Positions 2,646 to 19,215 of a stretch of DNA of 32,932 nucleotides are shown piece after piece. The translations under genes were made by a program, and so were the position numbers. Origin of the DNA: Acetofilamentum sp. (GTDB lineage: Bacteria > Bacteroidota > Bacteroidia > Bacteroidales > DYOH01). Below the pieces are notes generated by a model. The model made no database searches and was not told the origin of the DNA. It was given only the letters and a program-made list of their open reading frames with translations. The stretch covers positions 1-32,932 of the forward strand of contig DYOH01000002.1 in NCBI GenBank assembly GCA_020720625.1, read 5' to 3'. Positions within the stretch are counted from its first letter, which is position 1. Every line of letters starts with the position of its first letter.

Positions 2646-2681
2646 AAATCTTTTAATATGGGTGAACTCCATAAAAGATTT
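2646..2681 (-). terminator. probable terminator of the tocopherol-cyclase-like gene
   Basis: Bases 2646-2654 (AAATCTTTT) pair with 2673-2681, and an inner ATGG/CCAT stem lies inside, separated from the outer stem by a three-base bulge. On the minus strand the hairpin overlaps the stop codon and is followed by TTTT, as expected for intrinsic termination. Confidence 0.5.
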
Positions 2682-3796
2682 ATTTTAAAAGACCTTGCAA
2701 TTTATTGAAATCTCCCACCATTTCTAAACCGGTAATATTTGTGCTGTTTTGGAAAAGAATATTACCCTTTTTATCCAACATAGAAATCAATAGTGTGGCA
2801 TCAATACTCTCAGCAATCCGCCTGTCCATATCTCCTTCAACAGGAGCTTTGAGCATTCCGGTATTATTTGAAATAGCCTTAATCATGAAAGCATTTTTTC
2901 TATTTTCAATTTTTATATCGGCGCTATTATTGCCCGAAACTTCGAGATATAGTTTTGTAGAGCGATAAGTTGAAAAATGATGAATGAGTCCATCATGATA
3001 AAAAAAGCCTAAAAACCCGTTAAATGACTTGCCTATCCAAGGTATATCGGCAATAGAGAGCATAAAGGATGCATTCGGATTTGAAAAATTATTGCTTTGT
3101 ATCCAAATCCAGGACGAAGGCATACTAGTGCCCCAATCCTTTTCAATATAGCCTTTGCCATTCTCAAAGGCAAATATTTTGTTATCTACAATTATTTTAC
3201 CTTTTAGATTATGTGTAAGGCTTACAACCCCATGGTAACATTCCATAAAAGGTAAGAAACGATACCAGCCCATTATTCCGGGGTTTAATAATCTGCCCGA
3301 AGAATAATCGACAAGATTAAACATTTCTACCCTCCCTTTCACAATAGAATTAGAGTCCTTTAAATCAAGAATAATCAAATTGTCGGAAAAATAATTTTCA
3401 CCAATTTTTATCTCAAATTGCGATTTCGAAAAAGAAAAATTGCTCAATCGGAAAAGAATAATAACTGCTTTGGGCAGTAATTCCATTAATGACCTGTATA
3501 AAAGCATGTTGCTCCTTGCCGTCGCTCGATAAAGATATTCCAGGAATTACACTAAGTATAGCACTTCCATCTTCTGCCACCATTTTAAAATACCAGCCTT
3601 CAAAGTATTTCTGTTTCTTTTTATTTCCCTGAAAAATAATTGTATTTCCCATTTTTTTGAGATTATAAAAGGGCAAATACTTCTGATGTGTAAAATTTAT
3701 TTCGTTTTGTAACTCTTGCGCTAGCAAACCGCTAAATGAGAAAAATAAGCAGAGCAATACTATAAAACCAAAAATCCTTTTCTTTTTTACAGCCAT
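2680..3796 (-). pseudogene. secreted tocopherol-cyclase-like protein, broken by a single-base frameshift
   Basis: Two overlapping minus-strand frames join into one protein of about 371 residues. The N-terminal part (from 3796) has a clear signal peptide (KKKRIFGFIVLLCLFFSFS ... LLAQ), then the family signature FEGWYFKMV and VIPGISLS. The C-terminal part (to 2680) carries GYIEKDWGTSMPSSWIWIQ and GFLGFFYHDGL. These match the tocopherol cyclase family (PF14249), whose plant members close the chromanol ring; bacterial members have unknown substrates. Continuity is restored (...PIEQF|SFSKSQFEIK...) by removing one base from the A5 run at 3435-3439 or the nearby A5 at 3429-3433 on the plus strand. 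The tail also has an internal ATG at 3507, but it would lack the conserved N-terminal half. The break may be a real mutation or a homopolymer sequencing error. No partner genes of quinone or tocopherol synthesis are nearby. Confidence 0.75.
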
Positions 3797-6996: not shown

Positions 6997-7025
6997 TTTG
7001 CTGTATAAAAAAGTTTCTATATTTG
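6997..7025 (+). promoter_or_regulatory. promoter of the tRNA-Cys gene
   Basis: TTTG at 6997-7000 and TATATTTG at 7018-7025 are separated by 17 bases. Both boxes match the Bacteroidota primary-sigma consensus (TTTG / TAnnTTTG), and the tRNA begins 25 bases after the -7 box. This is among the clearest promoters in the window. Confidence 0.65.
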
Positions 7026-7050
7026 TAGCCCGAAAAGGCTACAAACAAAT

Positions 7051-7121
7051 GGTCGGTTAGCCGAGTGGTTAGGCAACGGTCTGCAAAACCGTCTACAGCG
7101 GTTCGAATCCGCTACCGACCT
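7051..7121 (+). tRNA. tRNA-Cys (GCA anticodon)
   Basis: The cloverleaf can be folded by eye. The acceptor stem is GGTCGGT (7051-7057) with ACCGACC (7114-7120). The anticodon stem is ACGGT (7076-7080) with ACCGT (7088-7092), enclosing the loop CTGCAAA with GCA at 7083-7085. A T-arm holds the GTTCGAATC loop. The discriminator base is T (U73), as expected for tRNA-Cys. The 3' CCA is not encoded and must be added after transcription. Confidence 0.96.
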
Positions 7122-7136
7122 CAATATAAGTATATT

Positions 7137-7170
7137 AAAAGGTAAATTTTGAAAAAAGTTTACCTTTTTA
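7137..7170 (+). terminator. terminator after tRNA-Cys
   Basis: AAAAGGTAAA (7137-7146) pairs perfectly with TTTACCTTTT (7159-7168) around a 12-base loop, with the T-run forming the right arm. It begins 16 bases after the tRNA. Confidence 0.75.
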
Positions 7171-7315
7171 TACTTCACAACACCAACTAAATCAGTTATT
7201 TACACAAAAGTCATCACAATTCCCTTTCCGATTCAAAAAAGAGAAAATAATAGGCTTTTTTTTTAAAATGTTCGACTATTGTTTAACTTTTGCTTTTATT
7301 CTTTCACCATCAATC

Positions 7316-7738
7316 TCAAAAATATTGCAATTTTATTAAAATATCAGCATTGTTTTTATCAAAAATAAAATCAAAATCCGAAAATTTTGGTTTTAAGGGC
7401 TTATTCAAGCGATAATTAGAAAATCCAACACCCTCAGTCGGAAAAATTTTGAATTTATAGGTCATATTGCCTGAATTATCTTCATCATCTAATACTGTTA
7501 TTGCGTAATTTCCCTGAACAACAGGAATTTTTGCCAACAAAAATCCGGCAACAACATCACCTTTTGCAAATACAAAGGAGCGATAGGGCTTCTCTTGGTC
7601 AAATTGCTTCTGATTCTGAAATACGCCAATCCGAAGCACCCCTTTTGAACTACGAATGCCATGTACTTGCAGAAAAAGCTGCTGTGCAGTGAGACTGCTG
7701 GTTATCAGACTAAATATCAGGATGACAATAATTTTCAT
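7316..7738 (-). CDS. secreted DUF2141 domain protein
   Basis: 140 residues: a signal peptide (MKIIVILIFSLITSSLTAQ), then a single DUF2141 domain. Family marks are VHGIRSSKGVLRIGVFQNQ near the start, the GNYAITVLDDEDNSGNM block, and FPTEGVGFSNYRL in place of the usual P-x-EGYGFSNN. The role is unknown; family members are small extracytoplasmic beta-proteins common in Bacteroidota. It lies 9 bases downstream of the LolA-like gene on the same strand, so it is part of the same operon. The promoter that served this operon may have been removed by the damage upstream. Confidence 0.85.
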   Translation of the reverse strand: MKIIVILIFSLITSSLTAQQLFLQVHGIRSSKGVLRIGVFQNQKQFDQEKPYRSFVFAKGDVVAGFLLAKIPVVQGNYAITVLDDEDNSGNMTYKFKIFPTEGVGFSNYRLNKPLKPKFSDFDFIFDKNNADILIKLQYF

Positions 7739-7747
7739 GAGATAAAT

Positions 7748-8518
7748 TTATTTTTCGAGCATTACAGGCGAAAATACATTCTCCGTTAGTTCCGAACCTA
7801 TCAGAAACTTATTTATCTGCATAACTGATTTTCGGCCATTTTGCAGGTTCTCCGCTGTCATGGAGAACGCAAAATATTTACCGTTTGATTGAAGCCTGTA
7901 ATCGCCAATAGATTGAATTTTAAATAACTCATTATCAAAATCATAAAATTCAATCTTGTGTGCCAAATAATTTCTCTGACTAATCCAACTTATTTTGCGA
8001 TAAAAGCCATTTTCGTCCTGAACATTCTCATCTTTACATAGTGCCTCAATTTTCCAACAAAGCTCACCCTGATAGTTTTCTGACCCAATCAATTTGTATG
8101 CAAAATCAGAAATATTCGGAAAGCTCATATCGGCATTGGTAAATTCGGAACCCATAAAGCTCTTTCCTTTTTCGCTACACACAATGCGTCGTGTTTTGCC
8201 AATCGCAGACATATAAATCCACATATCATCGTTTTTCTCTTTGTAATCAAATATCAGCATGCTTGTGCCCTTTACATCGGCCGGCGAAATAAACTTAATC
8301 AGGGTTTTATTTATCCCGTTAAATTCTTTGGTAGCAGTGCTAACTGTGCGGGTTCTCTGGTTACCCTTATTATCATAAATCCTAAGCATCACGATCATTT
8401 CCATAGCATCGAACTTAACTTTTGCATTAGACTTTTCGATGATGTCGAGTGCATTTTGCGTTTTAGCAGGCTGAAATGCGAAAAAAAGCACAAAGATAAA
8501 AGCAACTCTTTTTATCAT
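7748..8518 (-). CDS. outer-membrane lipoprotein-sorting (LolA-like, COG2834) protein
   Basis: 256 residues with a signal peptide (IKRVAFIFVLFFAFQPAKTQ) and the COG2834 pattern: TKEFNGINKTLIKFISPADV, KGTSMLIFDYKEKNDDMW, the MGSEFTNADMSFP segment, and a C-terminal LTENVFSP. These periplasmic proteins have a LolA-like fold for hydrophobic cargo and are nearly always encoded beside an RND/MMPL transporter, which is thought to share their cargo. Here the start codon overlaps the stop of a transporter remnant (ATGA, 8518-8515), so the native order was transporter, this gene, DUF2141. With the transporter mostly missing, the gene may be an orphan that is still open. Confidence 0.85.
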   Translation of the reverse strand: MIKRVAFIFVLFFAFQPAKTQNALDIIEKSNAKVKFDAMEMIVMLRIYDNKGNQRTRTVSTATKEFNGINKTLIKFISPADVKGTSMLIFDYKEKNDDMWIYMSAIGKTRRIVCSEKGKSFMGSEFTNADMSFPNISDFAYKLIGSENYQGELCWKIEALCKDENVQDENGFYRKISWISQRNYLAHKIEFYDFDNELFKIQSIGDYRLQSNGKYFAFSMTAENLQNGRKSVMQINKFLIGSELTENVFSPVMLEK

Positions 8519-8643
8519 GACGATTTGATATTTTTTGTTAAAAAATTGGGTTGTATTAGCAGACTAATTGCAGGCATTAGAATCAATCCGGCTATCAGAC
8601 ATAAAATGATTAACAACGTGGTGAAACTACACAATTTAGCTGC
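8515..8643 (-). pseudogene. C-terminal remnant of an RND/MMPL-family transporter
   Basis: An open frame of 42 codons without a start ends in a TGA (8517-8515) that overlaps the ATG of the LolA-like gene. It reads LCSFTTLLIILCLIAGLIL, then MPAISLLIQPNF, which is the form of the last membrane helix and tail of RND (MMPL/HAE3-like) transporters. The frame closes at a TAA at 8646-8644, inside sequence belonging to the truncated AraC-type regulator. The rest of the transporter, normally about 800 residues, is absent, so this is a deletion remnant or an assembly join. Confidence 0.65.
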
Positions 8644-9433
8644 TTAATTTCCATCTTCCGCTCCAACGAAAGCAAGGATTGTTTGTAGCGGAAATTTTTA
8701 TCCGCAAAAACTTTCTGGTCGTCTGCCACTCTACTACCAAAAATATCGTCTTGCTTTATTCCGTAGAATCCAATGGCAAAAGTAAGAAACAAACTAGCAA
8801 AATAATTGTAAAAAGTAACCGACTCGAGATTACTGGTAATAAATCCCCAAAAACCCCATAAAGTAACGGAAATTATGTAAATTAAGTAAGCCGCAATAAG
8901 AAACAAAAGCCAGGAAATTTTGTGGTTTTCGAGAATGTTGGAAAAAATATTCTGCAAATTTATTCTGTGTCTATGCACAACAAGAATGCTCATCAAATTG
9001 TATGAAATAAGGGAAACAATTAATAATGATACATACAAAATCCTAAGCCACAGTTGATTGTCGATATTAAAAAAAGACTTAGCACTTAAATCAATAGGCC
9101 AAATCCATTTGGCAACCTCGAGCAATAAATAAGGTAATAAATGAAATAATTGAGGCCATTTTAGTCTGAAACTTGTATTTGTTAATGAAACGGCATATAG
9201 AAAAAGTGCCGGATTGTATAAAAAAATGATGAAGGAATAATGCTAAAATCATTAGAAAAGGCTCTTATTCCCATATTTGCATAGTCTATGCTAAACAAAA
9301 AAAGCCAGGCAGCCAACAATCGGTCGGAAACGCTTGGTTTCTTTTTCGAAACCATTAAAACGGCAGCAAAAAGCGACATTGAAAAGCCTGCCCAAATAAT
9401 TTTCTCCATTTTACAAAAATAATAAATAGCCAT
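8610..9433 (-). pseudogene. membrane-anchored AraC-type regulator, frameshifted and lacking its HTH domain
   Basis: Two minus-strand frames form one N-terminal half of a Bacteroidota AraC-type regulator with several membrane helices. The first (from 9433, more likely from the ATG at 9409, MEKIIWAGFSMS) reads through KKPSVSDRLLAAWLFLFS and is lost after SSFF. One additional T in the T7 run (A7 at 9220-9226 on the plus strand) restores LYNPALFLYAVSLTNTSF and HLLPYLLLEVAKW, continuous with the second frame. The latter runs through further helices to FAIGFYGIKQDDIF and FRYKQSLLSLERK, the usual linker before the AraC helix-turn-helix. There the homology stops: the protein ends a few residues later (NCVVSPRC), where transporter-derived sequence begins. 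No DNA-binding domain remains. Confidence 0.68.
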
Positions 9434-9451
9434 ATTTTAATGCCCATTTAA

Positions 9452-9459
9452 CAAATATA
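9452..9459 (-). promoter_or_regulatory. possible promoter of the AraC-type pseudogene
   Basis: The minus strand reads TATATTTG, a full TAnnTTTG match, 43 bases upstream of the favoured ATG at 9409. The nearest TTTG is 24 bases upstream, longer than usual. Confidence 0.35.
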
Positions 9460-9573
9460 TATTTTGTATGCTTCATGATTAAACAAAACAAAAGAAGATT
9501 TATAGAGATAAATCAACAAATTCTAGCTTTTTTTTATATATTTACCTGATACTAAAAACTGGATTCATAGAGT

Positions 9574-11559
9574 ATGGAGATGCAAAGAAATATCTTAATC
9601 ATTGATGACACGCAAAGCATGTTGCTCCTCTTGAAATTTATGCTGGAAACAACAGGAGAATTTCAAGTTTTTACAGCAGCAAGCGGAAAAGATGGTTTAA
9701 GGCTAATTGAACAAATAAAGCCTGATTTAATTTTATTAGATATTGCAATGCCCGGTTTTAGTGGTTTTGATGTTTGTAAAAACCTTTCAGAGAATAAAGA
9801 AACCAAAGATATTCCAATTATATTTCTTTCGGCATTTACAGATACCTTTCAGAAAATTAAGGCCTTTGAGTTAGGTGGAGTTGACTACATAACCAAACCT
9901 TTTAATGAGGAAGAATTAATTGCTAGAATAAACATCCAGCTTAAAATTGCCAATCTGAACAAACAATTACGCAAATCAAACGAACATTTAGAAGAAAGAG
10001 TAAAACAAAGGACTACCGCTCTTGAGAATGAAATTGCATATAGAAAAGAAACAGAGGAAAAACTGCTTCAAAACCGCAATATGTTGGAACAAATTGCCGA
10101 CAATTCTTCTGCTTTTATTGCGCTTTTAAACACAAAATTAGAGTATATATTTATTAGCAAGGAATACGAGGTTTTTTTTCGTTTACAAAAAGAAAAGCTC
10201 ATTGGCAAAAAAATTAATCAAATTCTTTCTGAAGAATATCTTTCTAAAGCGATGCCTTTTTTAAAAAAAGCCTTGCAAGGCGAAAAAACCAAATTCAGCT
10301 ATTTTGTATTAAATAGTCTGAACGAAAGAAAAGAAGTAAACACCATTTACACACCCTATATTCAAAACAATGAAGTTACAGGAATAATCGTATTGGCCAT
10401 AGACATTACCGAAATAAAAAAAACAGAAGCACTTCTGATAAAAACTCAAAATGAACTAAAAGAAATAAATAACCAGCTGGAAAACAAAATAATAGAAAGA
10501 ACCAAGGAACTTGTTTTAAAAAATGATGAATTATATCAAAGCAAAAATTTGTTTAAATATTTTGTAAATCACTCGGTAAGTTGGGAAATTTTTTGCGACA
10601 AACAAGGAAATCCACTATACTGCACACCAGCATTCGAAAAAATTACCGGCTACAAAATGGAGCAATACTTGCAAGGAATCATCAAAATAAAGGATTTCGT
10701 GATTGATGCAGATAAAGAAAAATATATCCAATATAGCAAGAAAGCCATAAAAGGAGATAATTTTGAAAATCTGGAGTTTCGGATTCTCACAGCAAATAAG
10801 CAAACGAAATACCTATCGAAATCTGTTTTTCAGGTTTACAACCAAAAAAATGAAAGAATAGGATTTAGGGCCGGCCTAATTGATATTAGCAAACAAAAAG
10901 AGGAAAAAGCAGCCAGAATTGCTGCTGAGAATAAGATTTTTAATGCCATTATAGAATCTGAGGAAAAAGAAAGAGCCCACTTTGCCAAAGAACTGCACGA
11001 TGGCATAGGACCTATTCTATCTACTATTAAAATGTTTGCAGAATGGCTTAAAAGACCCGACCTGAAAACACCCAAAGACGAAATTTATAAAAAAATGGAA
11101 TACAGTATAGAAGAAGCCGTTTCTACAGTAAAAGAAATAAGCAATAATCTAAGTCCGCATATTCTGGCCAATTTTGGGCTCGTTTTTGCGCTTAAATCTT
11201 TTATCGAAAAAACCCAAGCTTTAAACAGCCTGGTAATTCATTTTATTACCAATATCAAACAGCGTTTTAGCAACGAAATAGAAATTACCATTTATAGGGC
11301 TTTGCTCGAATGCATCAACAATAGCATAAAACATGCTCAAGCAAAAAACATTAGCATTTCTTTGCAATTAACTAGCGATAAAATAGAAGCTAAATTCTCC
11401 GACGACGGAATTGGTTTCGACTACGATTATGTTATTCAACAACAAAAAGGATTGGGATTATTCAATATTCAAAACCGAATACATACTCTTGGCGGAAATT
11501 TTAAGATACAAAGCGTTATTCATCAAGGTGTTAATATTTGGTTTGAACTATATATTTAA
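9574..11559 (+). CDS. soluble sensor histidine kinase: receiver-PAS-PAS-HisKA_3-HATPase
   Basis: 661 residues with no membrane helix. Residues 5-122 are a receiver domain with acidic D11/D12, phospho-acceptor D56 (DLILLDIAMP), S86 and K108 (YITKPF). A coiled coil (about 123-170) leads to a PAS domain (171-285), a second coiled coil (286-325) and another PAS domain (326-440). The kinase core is of the DesK/NarX type: KERAHFAKELHDGIG with H475, then the HATPase with N-box LLECINNSIKHAQ, G1 FSDDGIGFDYD and G2 GLGLFNIQNR. It should phosphorylate the LuxR-type regulator that starts 13 bases after its stop. The N-terminal receiver implies that it takes a phosphoryl group from another histidine kinase. 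Which one is not shown; the CheA encoded downstream is a candidate. Confidence 0.9.
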   Translation: MEMQRNILIIDDTQSMLLLLKFMLETTGEFQVFTAASGKDGLRLIEQIKPDLILLDIAMPGFSGFDVCKNLSENKETKDIPIIFLSAFTDTFQKIKAFELGGVDYITKPFNEEELIARINIQLKIANLNKQLRKSNEHLEERVKQRTTALENEIAYRKETEEKLLQNRNMLEQIADNSSAFIALLNTKLEYIFISKEYEVFFRLQKEKLIGKKINQILSEEYLSKAMPFLKKALQGEKTKFSYFVLNSLNERKEVNTIYTPYIQNNEVTGIIVLAIDITEIKKTEALLIKTQNELKEINNQLENKIIERTKELVLKNDELYQSKNLFKYFVNHSVSWEIFCDKQGNPLYCTPAFEKITGYKMEQYLQGIIKIKDFVIDADKEKYIQYSKKAIKGDNFENLEFRILTANKQTKYLSKSVFQVYNQKNERIGFRAGLIDISKQKEEKAARIAAENKIFNAIIESEEKERAHFAKELHDGIGPILSTIKMFAEWLKRPDLKTPKDEIYKKMEYSIEEAVSTVKEISNNLSPHILANFGLVFALKSFIEKTQALNSLVIHFITNIKQRFSNEIEITIYRALLECINNSIKHAQAKNISISLQLTSDKIEAKFSDDGIGFDYDYVIQQQKGLGLFNIQNRIHTLGGNFKIQSVIHQGVNIWFELYI

Positions 11560-12591: not shown

Positions 12592-14631
12592 ATGGATGAA
12601 ATGACATTTATGCAATTTCGTGACCGATTTATAAACGAAGCGCGACAATTGCTGGTAAATCTGGAAAACAGTCTGCTTGAGCTTGAACATCAGCCCAATA
12701 ATAAAGAAATGATTGAAAATGTATTTAGGGTGATGCACACGCTTAAAGGCATTAGCGGCATGTACGGCTTCGATATTATAGGCGATTTTACGCACAATTT
12801 CGAAAGTATCTACCAATTAGTTCGCGATGATAAGACTGTGCTTACTAACGAAATTTTTAATCTCACTTTTCAATCTGTCGATCATATAAATAATTTACTC
12901 AACGATCCTGGTTTAGAAAACGAAGAAAACAAAAATATACATCTAGCCCTCAATGAACAAGTAAAAAACACCATTCGAAATTTAGGTATTCAAAAAGAAC
13001 CAGAGAAAAAAGAAAAAAAAAATACGGATCCTACAGACAAATGTAAATCATTAAAAACATGGTATATACAGATACAGGTTATCAAACAATTCGATTTAAG
13101 AAGCATCAATATCGTAAACCTGTTTTTCGATTTAACGCAAATAGGTAAATACCATGTTGTAAAAGGCGAACCCGATGCAGTTACGCTGAATAACGATGGC
13201 GATTTATGGCGTATTTTTTTGGCTACCGACGCTAACATCGAAGAAATTGAAGATATTTTTCTGTTTATTCTCGACGAATGCAAAATAATAAAACTTGCCG
13301 ACGAAGATTTACTTTCAGGCAATATTCTATTATCAAATTCTGATAATCCAGTATCTCTTTTAAACGAAAACACAATTCTGGAACTTATAGAAAATCAGAA
13401 AATAAGCTCCCAAAACAAAACAAAACAGCAACAAATGAAAGTGGAAGTCGCAGAAAATAATAAAAAATTAATCAATTCTAGAATATCAGTTCATGCAGAA
13501 AAACTAGATACCTTAATGTTCTTGGTTAGCGAACTTGTAACTACAAAATCGGAACTGCAACTTTCTCTCAAAAGCCAAAACATAGCTAAAATAGCTAAAG
13601 TTGCCGAAAAAATAGATAAACTATCTAAACAATTTAGAGATAATGCACTTGATATAAGACTTGTTCCAATAAGCGATTTAATTATCAGATTTAAACGATT
13701 AGTAAGAGATTTATCGCAATCTCTCGATAAAAAAATTGATTTCGTGATTGAAGGTGGAGATACAGAACTGGATAAAAGTATTATTGACAGTATTTCGGAG
13801 CCTCTGATGCATATTATCAGAAATTGCATCGACCATGGCATTGAAACTCCCGAAATGAGAATAAAAAGTCATAAACCGGAAACCGGAATCATAAAATTTA
13901 CTTCTTACCAGGAAGGCAGTTCAATTATTATCGCTGTAGAAGACGACGGGAAAGGTATTGATGCCAATGTGGTTATGCAAAAAGCCATTGAAAAAGGTTT
14001 TATTTCCAGCGATGCAAAACTTAGCGAAAAAGAAATCTATAATCTAATTTTCCTGCCTGGATTATCTACTGCTGAGAGTCTTACGCAAGTATCGGGAAGA
14101 GGCGTAGGAATGGATATTGTAAAAAAGAAATTGGCCGAACTCGGAGCACAAATTGATATTAGTAGTGATATCGGCGTTGGTACAAAATTCACTATTAAAC
14201 TGCATCAAACTATTGCCATTCTGGATACTCTCCTCTTTAGATCAGACGATATGCATTTGCTTATTCCGCTTTCGGACGTAGAAGAATGTAATCTGATAAA
14301 CAAAAATACACTCGAAGCCCATAAAGCTACAGGCACTGTGCCATACAACTACAAATTGATTCCATATATCGATATTTATAAACTATACAACCTGAAAACC
14401 CCTGATACCGAAAGACTAAAATTAATTATTCTGAACAAACAAGACAGCAGATTTGCTATTGCTGCCGATGTGATTATTGGTGAGCACCAGGCTGTTTTAA
14501 AATCCATTGGGAAACAATTAAAAAAACAAGACAATATTTCGGCAGCGAGTATAATGGGCGACGGAAACCTCGCCTTCTTGCTCGATCTTAATTCCTTACA
14601 AAAAATTAATTACGAAACGCAAACTTTTTAA
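12592..14631 (+). CDS. cheA: chemotaxis-type histidine kinase CheA
   Basis: 679 residues with the classical CheA order. The P1/Hpt domain (about 1-130) has phospho-acceptor H49 in VMHTLKGISGMYGF. A P2-like segment (about 155-245) could bind a receiver partner. The P3 dimerisation helices (about 295-365) contain VSELVTTKSELQLS. The P4 ATPase has N-box HIIRNCIDHGIE (N411), G1 VEDDGKGID and G2 SGRGVGMDIV. The P5 CheW-like domain extends from about 540 to the end. No C-terminal receiver is fused. Phosphoryl flow would start at H49 when the receptor-CheW array activates the kinase. The mcp gene begins 11 bases after the stop and cheW follows, so the three form an operon. No cheY, cheB or cheR is present in the window. 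Confidence 0.96.
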   Translation: MDEMTFMQFRDRFINEARQLLVNLENSLLELEHQPNNKEMIENVFRVMHTLKGISGMYGFDIIGDFTHNFESIYQLVRDDKTVLTNEIFNLTFQSVDHINNLLNDPGLENEENKNIHLALNEQVKNTIRNLGIQKEPEKKEKKNTDPTDKCKSLKTWYIQIQVIKQFDLRSINIVNLFFDLTQIGKYHVVKGEPDAVTLNNDGDLWRIFLATDANIEEIEDIFLFILDECKIIKLADEDLLSGNILLSNSDNPVSLLNENTILELIENQKISSQNKTKQQQMKVEVAENNKKLINSRISVHAEKLDTLMFLVSELVTTKSELQLSLKSQNIAKIAKVAEKIDKLSKQFRDNALDIRLVPISDLIIRFKRLVRDLSQSLDKKIDFVIEGGDTELDKSIIDSISEPLMHIIRNCIDHGIETPEMRIKSHKPETGIIKFTSYQEGSSIIIAVEDDGKGIDANVVMQKAIEKGFISSDAKLSEKEIYNLIFLPGLSTAESLTQVSGRGVGMDIVKKKLAELGAQIDISSDIGVGTKFTIKLHQTIAILDTLLFRSDDMHLLIPLSDVEECNLINKNTLEAHKATGTVPYNYKLIPYIDIYKLYNLKTPDTERLKLIILNKQDSRFAIAADVIIGEHQAVLKSIGKQLKKQDNISAASIMGDGNLAFLLDLNSLQKINYETQTF

Positions 14632-14642
14632 TATGAATTACT

Positions 14643-16556
14643 ATGAACAACTTTAAAATCAGATCAAAACTTTTGGCTAGTTTTCTGCTCATTGTAGCAT
14701 TAACCGCATTTTTAGGTTATTTATCGATTACAAATATAACTAAAATTGATAATACTGATATTGAGCTTTATGAAACAAAACTTGTTCCAATGGAATATGT
14801 AACACAAACAGCTACCTTATTTCAAAGACTAAGGGTAAACTATCGCGATATGATTTTTGCTAAAACCGAGGACGAAGTAGAACACTACTATAACCAAATT
14901 GGCGAATTAGACAAAGAGATGGATGCTGCTATTGCAAATTACTCCAAAACCGCCTTTACCGAAGAAAACAAAAAATTGGTAAAAGAAATTATCAAAAGCA
15001 AAAAAGTAGTGATGGCCTATATGCCCCAATTGAAAAAAATCTCACTACAAAACAATGATTCTTTGGCAATTGTTTTTATAAACGGTGATATGCACTCTAA
15101 AGCTAACGAAATGAGAGATTTACTCAACGAATTTGTTGAATATAACGTATCTCATGGGAAAATTTTGACCGATGCAAATACTGTGCTTACAAAAAGCGTT
15201 AACAACATTCTTCTTATCGCAATTTTTTCTATTGTTTTAATATCCATAATATTAGCCTTTAGTATTGCCACCAATATACAAAACATTATTAAATCGGTTA
15301 TAAAACAAACCAGCGAATTGGTAGATGCTACTATTGGCGGCAGACTAGCCACAAGAGCGCGCCCCGAAGACACAAACGAGGAATTTAGAGAAATTGTAAT
15401 TGGCATTAACAAAACACTCGACGCAGTTATTAACCCGCTTAATGTTGCCGCCGAATACGTGGACAAAATATCCAAAGGAAACATTCCTCCTATAATAACT
15501 GATTCGTACAACGGAGATTTCAACGATATAAAAAACAATTTAAATCTATTAATTACATCTACCAACGATATTACAGAGAAAGCTAAAAAAATATCTCAGG
15601 GTGATTTAACTGTTCAGCTAAAAAAACGCTCTGAGAACGACGAATTAATCTCGGCACTTTCTGATATGATAGACAAACTTATTGATGTAATAACCAATAT
15701 AATAGGTGGAGCCAACAACATTGCAATCGCCAGCTCGGAAATGAGTTCGGCCTCGCAGCAAATCTCTGAAGGAACATCAGAACAAGCATCTTCGGTAGAA
15801 GAAGTTACATCGTCGGTTGAAGAAATGAACGCCAATATTATTCAAAACACTGACAATGCCGTACAAACTGAAAAAATTGCACTCAAATCATCGTCAGATA
15901 TTGAAGAAGCTAATAGCGCAGTGGATATTACTGTAAAAGCGATGATTGAGATTGCAGAAAAATTAGTAATTATCAACGAAATTGCAGAAAAAACGGACAT
16001 ACTCGCTATTAATGCCGCCATTGAAGCAGCTCGCGCCGGCGAACATGGAAAAGGATTTGCGGTGGTTGCCGCAGAAGTTCGTAAATTGGCAGAAAATAGC
16101 CAAATTGCTGCCAAAGAAATTAGCGAAGTAACCAAAAAAAGTGTGGATATTTCTAAAAATGCAGGTGTACTACTTTCTAAAGTGGTTCCTGATATTCAGA
16201 GAACTACCGGATTAGTGCAAGAAATTGCCGCTGCCAGCCGCGTACAAAATTTGGGTGCTAACCAAATAAGTAACGCCATGTCTCAGCTCAACAACGTGGT
16301 GCAACAAAATGCCGCTAGTGCAGAAGAATTATCAAGCAATGCAGAAGAATTAGCAGCTCAGGCCGAAGTACTTAAAGACTTAGTTACCTTCTTTAAACTT
16401 AACGAAAACGCTTTAAAAAAAGCCAAAGTTTTAAACAAACAAATTTCGTTTACTCACCAGCCTGCAGCTAAACATAAAGTAGCTGCAAATAAGCCAACAT
16501 CAAACATTAAAATAAATATGGATGATGATATGGACAAAGATTTCACTAAATTTTAA
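14643..16556 (+). CDS. methyl-accepting chemotaxis protein (transmembrane receptor)
   Basis: 637 residues. TM1 is at about 7-29 ([18 protein letters not shown]). A helical periplasmic sensor of about 150 residues resembles the 4HB_MCP family. TM2 is at about 186-212 ([20 protein letters not shown]), followed by HAMP and HAMP-like segments and a long cytoplasmic coiled coil. The conserved hairpin tip is near 449-490 ([20 protein letters not shown], then [16 protein letters not shown]). It should bind CheA and CheW at the membrane. The C-terminus ends in an acidic [12 protein letters not shown] and lacks an E. coli-type NWETF tether for CheR. An ATG at 14634 leads to an early stop, so 14643 is the start. 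The ligand is unknown. Confidence 0.94.
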
Positions 16557-16567
16557 ATTGAAAACTC

Positions 16568-17059
16568 ATGGTAAATTTTAATGAAATAAAAACATATCTT
16601 TCGTTTATTATTGATAACGAGTATTTTGCAGTAAATGTAAGCAAAGTACTAGAAGTACTTCAATCTCAGAAGATTACAAGAGTACCCAATGTTTCAAACG
16701 ATATTAAAGGTGTGATCAATTTTAGAGGTGAGATTATTCCTGTTTTCGAAATGAGAACAAGATTTGGCTTGCCGGATAGAGCGCTAGATGACAAATACGT
16801 AATTATTGTACTCGAAATTACCTCAAAAAATACCAAATCTGTTATTGGTGCCATAGCCAATAGAGTGAAGGATGTAATTACAATTGAAAATAATGATATT
16901 ATGGCTGTTCCAAAAATGAACACAAAAATTAACGTTGACCTAATTACCGGAATTATCAAACTAAAAGATGATTTTATAATGATGCTTGATGTAGACAAAA
17001 TGTTCTCTGAGCAAGAACTCGAAGTACTAAGCCAAATGGTTTCTGAAAAACAGCAATAA
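16568..17059 (+). CDS. cheW: chemotaxis coupling protein CheW
   Basis: 163 residues forming a single CheW domain: KTYLSFIIDNEYFAVNVSKV, VLEVLQSQKITRVPNV, then KGVINFRGEIIPVFEMRTRF, and later GAIANRVKDVITI and FIMMLDVDKMF. It links the receptor to CheA in the array. It starts 11 bases after the mcp stop and is the last gene of the operon; a strong terminator follows. Confidence 0.95.
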   Translation: MVNFNEIKTYLSFIIDNEYFAVNVSKVLEVLQSQKITRVPNVSNDIKGVINFRGEIIPVFEMRTRFGLPDRALDDKYVIIVLEITSKNTKSVIGAIANRVKDVITIENNDIMAVPKMNTKINVDLITGIIKLKDDFIMMLDVDKMFSEQELEVLSQMVSEKQQ

Positions 17060-17970: not shown

Positions 17971-19215
17971 ATGGTTATAAAAGAATATTTCTCATTGTCG
18001 GAAGCATCAGAATTAATCGGTAAAAGTAAGGAAACTCTAAGACGGTGGGACAGAGACGGTAAATTATCAGCAGTTCGTGAGCCAATAAGCAATTATCGTG
18101 TTTATTCAAAACAACAAGTTTTAGAATTGTTTTCAGACTTTATACCAGAAAACAACGGTGAAACTGTAACTAATTACGTTGAAGCAGATAAGGAATATAT
18201 GGTTTTAGAATTATTTGCAGGCGCAGGAGGTTTAGCTGTAGGACTTGAAAAATCAGGATTAAAATGTGCAGCATTAAACGAGATTGATAAATGGGCATGT
18301 AATACACTACGGAAAAATCGTCCAAATTGGAAAGTTCTCGAAGGTGATATAAAAGACTTTGATTTTTCGGAATATCATAATAAAATTGATGTGGTTACAG
18401 GCGGTTTTCCCTGCCAAGCATTTAGTTACGCCGGAAAAAAATTAGGCTTTGCGGATGCCAGGGGTACTTTGTTTTATGAATTTGCAAGAGTTGTAAAAGA
18501 AGTAAATCCACCAATTTGTGTTGGAGAAAATGTTCGTGGACTTTTAAGCCACGAAAACGGAAAAACGTTACAAGGAATGATTTCTGTTTTAGATGAAATT
18601 GGATATAATATAGTTCCTATTCAAGTATTGAAAGCTATAAATTTTAAAGTTCCACAAAAACGTGAACGTCTTATACTTGTAGGTATAAGAAAAGATATTG
18701 ATATTAAATTTGAATATCCAAAACCTTATAAAAAAATCTATAATTTAGAATCTGCATTAAAAAAAGGCGAATTATTCGATTGTGACGTACCAGAATCAAT
18801 CGGTGCAAAATATCCTAAAAGTAAAATTGAAGTTTTAGATTTAGTGCCCCCTAAAGGTTATTGGCGTGATTTGCCATTGGATATACAGAAAAAATTTATG
18901 GGTGGAAGTTTTTATCTTGGGGGTGGAAAAACAGGTATTGCAAGACGAATTGGTTGGGACGAACCTTGTCTTACATTAACTTGCAGTCCGGCACAAAAGC
19001 AAACAGAACGATGTCATCCAGATGAGACAAGGCCATTCACGGTTCGAGAGTATGCCAGAATACAAACATTTCCTGATGACTGGGAATTTGATGGTTCTAT
19101 TGCACAACAATACAAACAAATAGGAAATGCTGTTCCAGTTAATCTTGGTACCGAAGTTGGTTACTCGCTAGTAAATTTTTTAAATAAATACTATAAATCA
19201 TTAAATCCCAAATAA
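17971..19215 (+). CDS. DNA (cytosine-5) methyltransferase with N-terminal MerR-like HTH (type II R-M)
   Basis: 414 residues. Residues 6-52 are a MerR-like helix-turn-helix (SLSEASELIGKSKETLRRWD, NYRVYSKQQVLELF). The C5-methyltransferase core follows in the normal order: motif I LELFAGAGGLAVGLEKSG (from about 79), motif IV GGFPCQAFS with catalytic C148, motif VI ENVRG, motif VIII QKRERLILVG, a target-recognition region (about 255-340), motif IX REYARIQTFPDDW and motif X QIGNAVPVNLG. It transfers a methyl group from SAM to cytosine and protects the host from the convergent Eco47II-like nuclease, so GGNCC is the probable target (inferred from the partner). The HTH may let the enzyme repress its own gene, in place of a separate control protein. 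The 3' end overlaps that of the nuclease gene by 25 bases. Confidence 0.93.
   Translation: MVIKEYFSLSEASELIGKSKETLRRWDRDGKLSAVREPISNYRVYSKQQVLELFSDFIPENNGETVTNYVEADKEYMVLELFAGAGGLAVGLEKSGLKCAALNEIDKWACNTLRKNRPNWKVLEGDIKDFDFSEYHNKIDVVTGGFPCQAFSYAGKKLGFADARGTLFYEFARVVKEVNPPICVGENVRGLLSHENGKTLQGMISVLDEIGYNIVPIQVLKAINFKVPQKRERLILVGIRKDIDIKFEYPKPYKKIYNLESALKKGELFDCDVPESIGAKYPKSKIEVLDLVPPKGYWRDLPLDIQKKFMGGSFYLGGGKTGIARRIGWDEPCLTLTCSPAQKQTERCHPDETRPFTVREYARIQTFPDDWEFDGSIAQQYKQIGNAVPVNLGTEVGYSLVNFLNKYYKSLNPK

Follow-up and report, generated by a model that had tools for sequence, protein, structure and literature searches.

A conserved envelope-transport operon reduced to its ends in Acetofilamentum sp., very probably by a deletion of about 4 kb

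On the minus strand of the window (the whole stretch of 32,932 nucleotides from Acetofilamentum sp. analyzed here), the remains of a membrane AraC-type regulator run directly into the last residues of an RND/MMPL transporter, which are followed by intact LolA-like and DUF2141 genes (Table 1). Comparison with related loci sets out a conserved Bacteroidota envelope-transport operon composed of regulator, outer-membrane barrel, RND transporter, LolA-like gene, and often DUF2141. The region is very probably the wreck of such an operon, produced by a deletion of about 4 kb, and as a single case it looks like ordinary operon decay by deletion. A literature search found no description of this operon in Bacteroidota, and the papers listed in a search for DUF2141 or RND were not relevant.

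Table 1. Features of the remnant in the window
Feature	Position	Strand	Support
Intact DUF2141 gene (PF09912)	7316..7738	-	Pfam E 4.9e-20; 72 bits, cut-off 24.4
Intact LolA-like gene (LolA_like, PF17131)	7748..8518	-	Pfam E 6.1e-49; 166.6 bits, cut-off 30
C-terminal tail of RND/MMPL transporter, 42-codon frame	8515..8643	-	26.0 bits, E 2.6e-7
Junction zone, where regulator homology ends and RND homology starts	8604..8643	-	Alignments from both sides
Second piece of regulator, membrane part, ending before the HTH	8610..9242	-	Profile positions 66-268 of 380, E 4.6e-37
T7 run on the coding strand (A7 on the plus strand), site of the regulator frame change	9220..9226	-	Sequence and alignment of relatives
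N-terminal piece of membrane AraC-family regulator, first frame	9182..9433	-	Profile positions 6-81 of 380, E 2.6e-14

The intact state of the operon is known from 31 distinct loci that carry a related LolA-like gene and that were read with profiles. These are seven of the eight named loci and all 27 genomes, other than the window's own, from a search of 393 genomes of the larger order. Three of the latter loci (L099, L100, and L102) duplicate named ones (L050, L051, and L053) with the same scores, and each pair was counted once, as were the two contigs of one genome (L036 and L037, G040). The eighth named locus, L056 from Pseudodesulfovibrio, is a distant relative (31% identical) and was left out. 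The usual order is regulator, outer-membrane barrel, RND transporter, and LolA-like gene, with DUF2141 in about half of the loci. Thirty of the 31 have an RND gene of full length, the contig of the exception (L098) stopping before the gene does. A complete barrel is present in 28; L036 and L098 reach contig ends here, and L116 shows a match split in two. Upstream, 22 loci have a regulator of this family with its HTH complete; contig ends cut it off in L050, L036/L037, and L098. No regulator of the family was found in the stretch read at the six others (L054, L094, L109, L113, L115, and L116); L113 and L115 show no more than a weak HTH match (23-24 bits) immediately upstream. In 10 of the 31 loci DUF2141 comes after the LolA-like gene, and in five it is placed between barrel and RND gene. 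The cassette is not equally tight everywhere, since in L101, L104, L105, L106, and L111 the regulator lies about 1.5-2.6 kb from the barrel. When both of these genes are complete, an intergenic gap usually precedes the barrel.

Two of these loci illustrate the arrangement. In a Prolixibacteraceae MAG (L049), regulator, barrel, RND, and LolA-like genes follow each other in this order and then comes DUF2141, whereas in Labilibacter sediminis (L055) the first four genes are in the same order and no DUF2141 match was found in the stretch read. Their LolA-like proteins are, respectively, 49% and 47% identical to the one of the window. Relative to both operons, the window lacks the HTH, the barrel, and a full RND gene, and what remains is in the same order. 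The original prediction had expected relatives to show regulator, RND transporter, LolA-like gene, and DUF2141; the order of the first three is as expected, but the barrel between regulator and transporter had been missed, and DUF2141 varies in position and presence. In one locus the barrel gene itself is perhaps interrupted: its match in L116:2963-4237 (G060, contig C25) is split into profile positions 17-349 and 373-477, with RND and LolA-like genes intact. In two other relatives, RND pump and LolA-like protein are fused in an open frame of ~1026-1029 residues (L034:1959-5039, minus strand, in G009, and L105 in G126).

Judged from alignments, the two minus-strand frames upstream of the junction are pieces of one membrane AraC-type regulator. 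They match a single profile of 380 positions, built from seven complete relatives, and meet at the T7 run, where a frameshift had been predicted; the coding signal shifts frame at 9232/9230, beside this run. Over 43-44 residues, the first piece gives tblastn matches of 56% with L037 and 50% with L051. The N-terminal membrane part typical of this subgroup of regulators is thus present, in two pieces. Similarity to the relatives ends at ~8640, short of the DNA-binding domain, and the HTH profile has no significant match among the 941 ORFs of the window (best E 1.6), in agreement with the predicted loss of this domain. The C-terminal HTH_18/HTH_AraC domain expected of AraC-family membrane regulators is therefore absent from the window; HTH_18 is found in the two relatives' regulators that were scanned (E 5.7e-15 and 1.3e-14), which identifies the missing part by Pfam. 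The invariant residues retained number 10 of 13 and 3 of 6 in the two pieces, too few positions for a judgment, the fractions in the relatives themselves being 0.43-1.0. Because it is frameshifted as well as deprived of its HTH, the regulator is very likely dead. The frame change at the T7 run is a second lesion, separate from the deletion, and need not belong to it. It could be a sequencing error, because both supported frame changes of the window lie in T-rich runs.

On the other side of the junction, the 42-codon frame is the only significant match in the 941 ORFs to a profile made from the transporter tails of 10 relatives. The next ORF reaches 8.2 bits (E 0.09), and none of 2000 shuffles scores above 14.3. 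Against the full RND profile, the frame aligns with positions 729-759 of 771 (21.0 bits, E 3.8e-6). The frame had been described as the last ~40 residues of an RND transporter; it is indeed an RND tail, but the homology covers only the last ~26-31 residues, the first ten or so falling in the junction zone. As predicted, the TGA of the tail overlaps the ATG of the LolA-like gene (ATGA, 8518-8515). The conserved C-terminal tail thus adjoins the LolA-like gene, which is also the neighbor of the full RND gene in the relatives, and the two MMPL domains expected of an RND/MMPL transporter of about 750-780 residues are missing from the window. In the last membrane helix, the tail has a gap of three residues relative to 19 of 19 aligned relatives, which may reflect further decay or the breakpoint itself.

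The extent of the loss can be measured against L049, in which 3767 is the last position matched by the regulator and 7802 the first matched by the tail. Some 4.0 kb are absent, including the HTH, the entire barrel gene, and about 94% of the transporter. The barrel profile has no significant match in the window (best E 0.026). The predicted deletion of the HTH and of nearly all the transporter is thus borne out by the comparison, but the loss of the barrel had been overlooked. The missing pieces do not seem to have been relocated in the genome, since its assembly (98.51% complete, with 0.24% contamination), when searched, yielded no likely copy of the HTH, barrel, or RND parts. The best RND match there is 27% identical to the relatives' pump and the sole barrel match 25%, both on contig C18, and the HTH matches are 28-33% in four other frames. 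Contig C18 (L057) holds a separate set of RND, LolA-like, and barrel genes. This set is preceded by an ORF that, by eye, is TetR-like.

The two genes downstream of the junction were predicted to be open and devoid of their transporter, and this holds: both frames are intact and the pump is reduced to its tail. The LolA-like protein is 37-55% identical to relatives at the same operon position. Of 42 residues that do not vary among 10 relatives, it retains 37, and the DUF2141 protein retains 15 of 17 that do not vary among seven; the fractions in the relatives themselves are 0.82-1.0 and 0.77-1.0. By this measure neither gene appears to show clear decay. Since conserved residues are kept about as in relatives, either the loss is recent or both genes are still working. 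A synonymous-codon score was tried as a test of decay and discarded, as it failed to separate intact from broken genes. A point for annotators is that, in this window, the LolA-like and DUF2141 genes stand as orphans.

The following scenario would account for these data. The ancestral locus would have had the order membrane AraC regulator, outer-membrane barrel, RND/MMPL pump, LolA-like periplasmic carrier, and DUF2141. A deletion of ~4 kb would then have removed the region from the HTH of the regulator, through the barrel, to about profile position 728 of 771 in the pump, joining the regulator remnant to the pump tail at about 8604-8643. This reading is favored because the regulator profile stops at 268 of 380 and the RND profile starts at 729 of 771, and because relatives have the same order and none of the 31 has the junction of the window. 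The loss would have happened as one event. Yet because the closest LolA-like relative among the 393 genomes is only 55% identical, the breakpoint, any microhomology, and a single event are not demonstrable, and the exact breakpoint within the junction zone is not resolvable from the alignments. We considered a repeat-mediated deletion and rejected it: repeats in 7000-9600 are short and do not convincingly bracket the junction (the longest direct pair is 20 nt, 85%), and the lost end is not inspectable. Because a gap usually separates regulator from barrel in relatives, the promoter of the structural genes probably sat in the deleted stretch. The LolA-like gene would also no longer be translationally coupled to the pump, and expression of the surviving genes would have been lost. 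The pair would thus stand without pump, barrel, upstream translational coupling, and probably promoter, and the two genes would be either recent leftovers or dependent on read-through plus a foreign pump.

A real operon that is intact in the cell, with ~4 kb skipped or misjoined in assembly, e.g., in a mixed-strain sample, is an improbable alternative. The assembly is in 143 pieces, and the contig of the window (C10) is a scaffold, as indicated by a run of 100 N outside the window. The second frame change in a T-rich run nearby (~3411-3457) shows that local sequence errors are possible. However, the sequences on either side of the junction are parts of a single operon and keep its order and orientation, an outcome that would be rare for a random chimera. 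The junction itself contains no run of N, and no likely copy of the missing parts turned up on another contig when the assembly was searched. Nor do frame changes seem rampant, as only two were confirmed in ~90 kb of C10, both in the window. A scan of this ~90 kb for frame switches in the coding signal flagged the regulator; the other affected gene, a tocopherol-cyclase-like one, fell just outside the gap limit of the scan and came to light through the ORF list and homology. Two further candidates outside the window correspond to the 100-N gap and to a normal gene boundary, and several weaker ones, in rows of the scan that lack a start close by, are not part of this count. In any case, a loss of 4 kb could not be explained as a sequencing error in a T run.

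If the junction is real, the shortened locus might itself be functional, with an HTH-less sensor fragment and an orphan LolA-like and DUF2141 pair served by another pump, e.g., the RND of C18. This is unlikely. It would fit the intact pair, whose conserved residues are within the range of relatives, and the genome does have possible substitute partners: the C18 set and, on contig C107, another LolA-like gene beside ORFs that by eye resemble ABC-transporter parts. On the other hand, the regulator has a frameshift and no HTH, the C18 pump is distant from those of the relatives and has a LolA-like gene of its own, and the gap before the barrel that in relatives presumably carries the promoter is deleted here. 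That the pair alone remains functional with another RND pump, such as the one of the C18 set, after losing its own pump, barrel, and regulator is likewise doubtful; if true, the LolA-like carriers of such systems would be interchangeable parts. A natural short form, in which some relatives have an HTH-less regulator and no pump, is very improbable. The distant L056 has a LolA-like gene with a partial barrel match and no RND match within its 9.2 kb, but no remnant of a membrane regulator is joined to an RND tail there, and the absence of the window's arrangement from all 31 loci contradicts this reading. A regulator naturally ending at this point, together with a 42-residue frame lacking RND similarity, had been named in the original prediction as evidence that would tell against it; none of the 31 loci has the junction of the window, and the frame does have RND similarity. 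Hence, deletion and decay of a once complete operon remains the preferred reading.

The intact operon resembles in kind the AmeABCD system of Castellaniella defragrans, which includes an outer-membrane DUF1302 protein, a periplasmic protein of the LolA superfamily (DUF1329), and an HAE3-type RND pump, and whose deletion lowers monoterpene tolerance (PMC6394551). Similarly, the relatives have an MMPL pump and a weakly DUF1302-like barrel, the two that were scanned scoring below the DUF1302 cut-off, and the LolA-like protein of the window also matches DUF1329 (E 3.3e-7). By analogy, the relatives' pump would take a hydrophobic substrate across the inner membrane, the LolA-like protein would carry it over the periplasm, and the barrel would pass it through the outer membrane; the operon is probably a transport system for a greasy substance in the cell envelope. 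There are also differences from this system: its host is a betaproteobacterium, its ameABC genes lie upstream of ameD, an order that differs from the one of the relatives, and no counterpart of AmeC was identified here. The window has no DUF1302 barrel and, because both pump and barrel are absent, it is not filed as an AmeABCD member. Another point of comparison is TOL_3187 of Thalassolituus oleivorans, reported to have MMPL and LolA-like domains in one protein (PMC6304351). The fused open frames of L034 and L105 are alike in this respect, whereas in the window pump and LolA-like protein were encoded by separate genes, of which the pump has left only its tail.

The undeleted operon has not been seen in the genus. 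In the congener G001 (assembly 78% complete), polyketide-cyclase-like, metallo-beta-lactamase-like, M20 peptidase, and tRNA-Cys genes lie upstream in the same order, a different ORF follows the tRNA-Cys, and there is no operon at the site; the best LolA-like match in this genome is 29%. In G002, other genes follow the peptidase, and a tRNA did not turn up within the 12 kb examined. The operon was therefore either acquired here or lost there. The site beside the tRNA-Cys (7051-7122, plus strand; L080) varies within the genus. Insertion of a mobile element beside this tRNA was considered and set aside: the window contains no second copy of the tRNA 3' end, allowing up to three mismatches, and hence no attachment-site repeat.

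Other features of the contig lie further from the junction. The tocopherol-cyclase-like gene (2680-3796, minus strand) is broken in two where the frame changes at ~3411-3457, in sequence rich in T, and is a single frame of 385 residues in G002. The 100 N of C10 (33586-33685, or L059:687-786) are flanked by near-identical repeats that belong to the gene of a large repetitive protein. CheA, a methyl-accepting chemotaxis protein, and CheW are encoded consecutively at 12592-17059 (plus strand), with a response-regulator/PAS histidine kinase (9574-11559) and a LuxR-type regulator upstream of this row. Finally, the C-5 cytosine DNA methylase encoded at 17971-19215 (plus strand) carries an in-frame MerR-type HTH at its N terminus.
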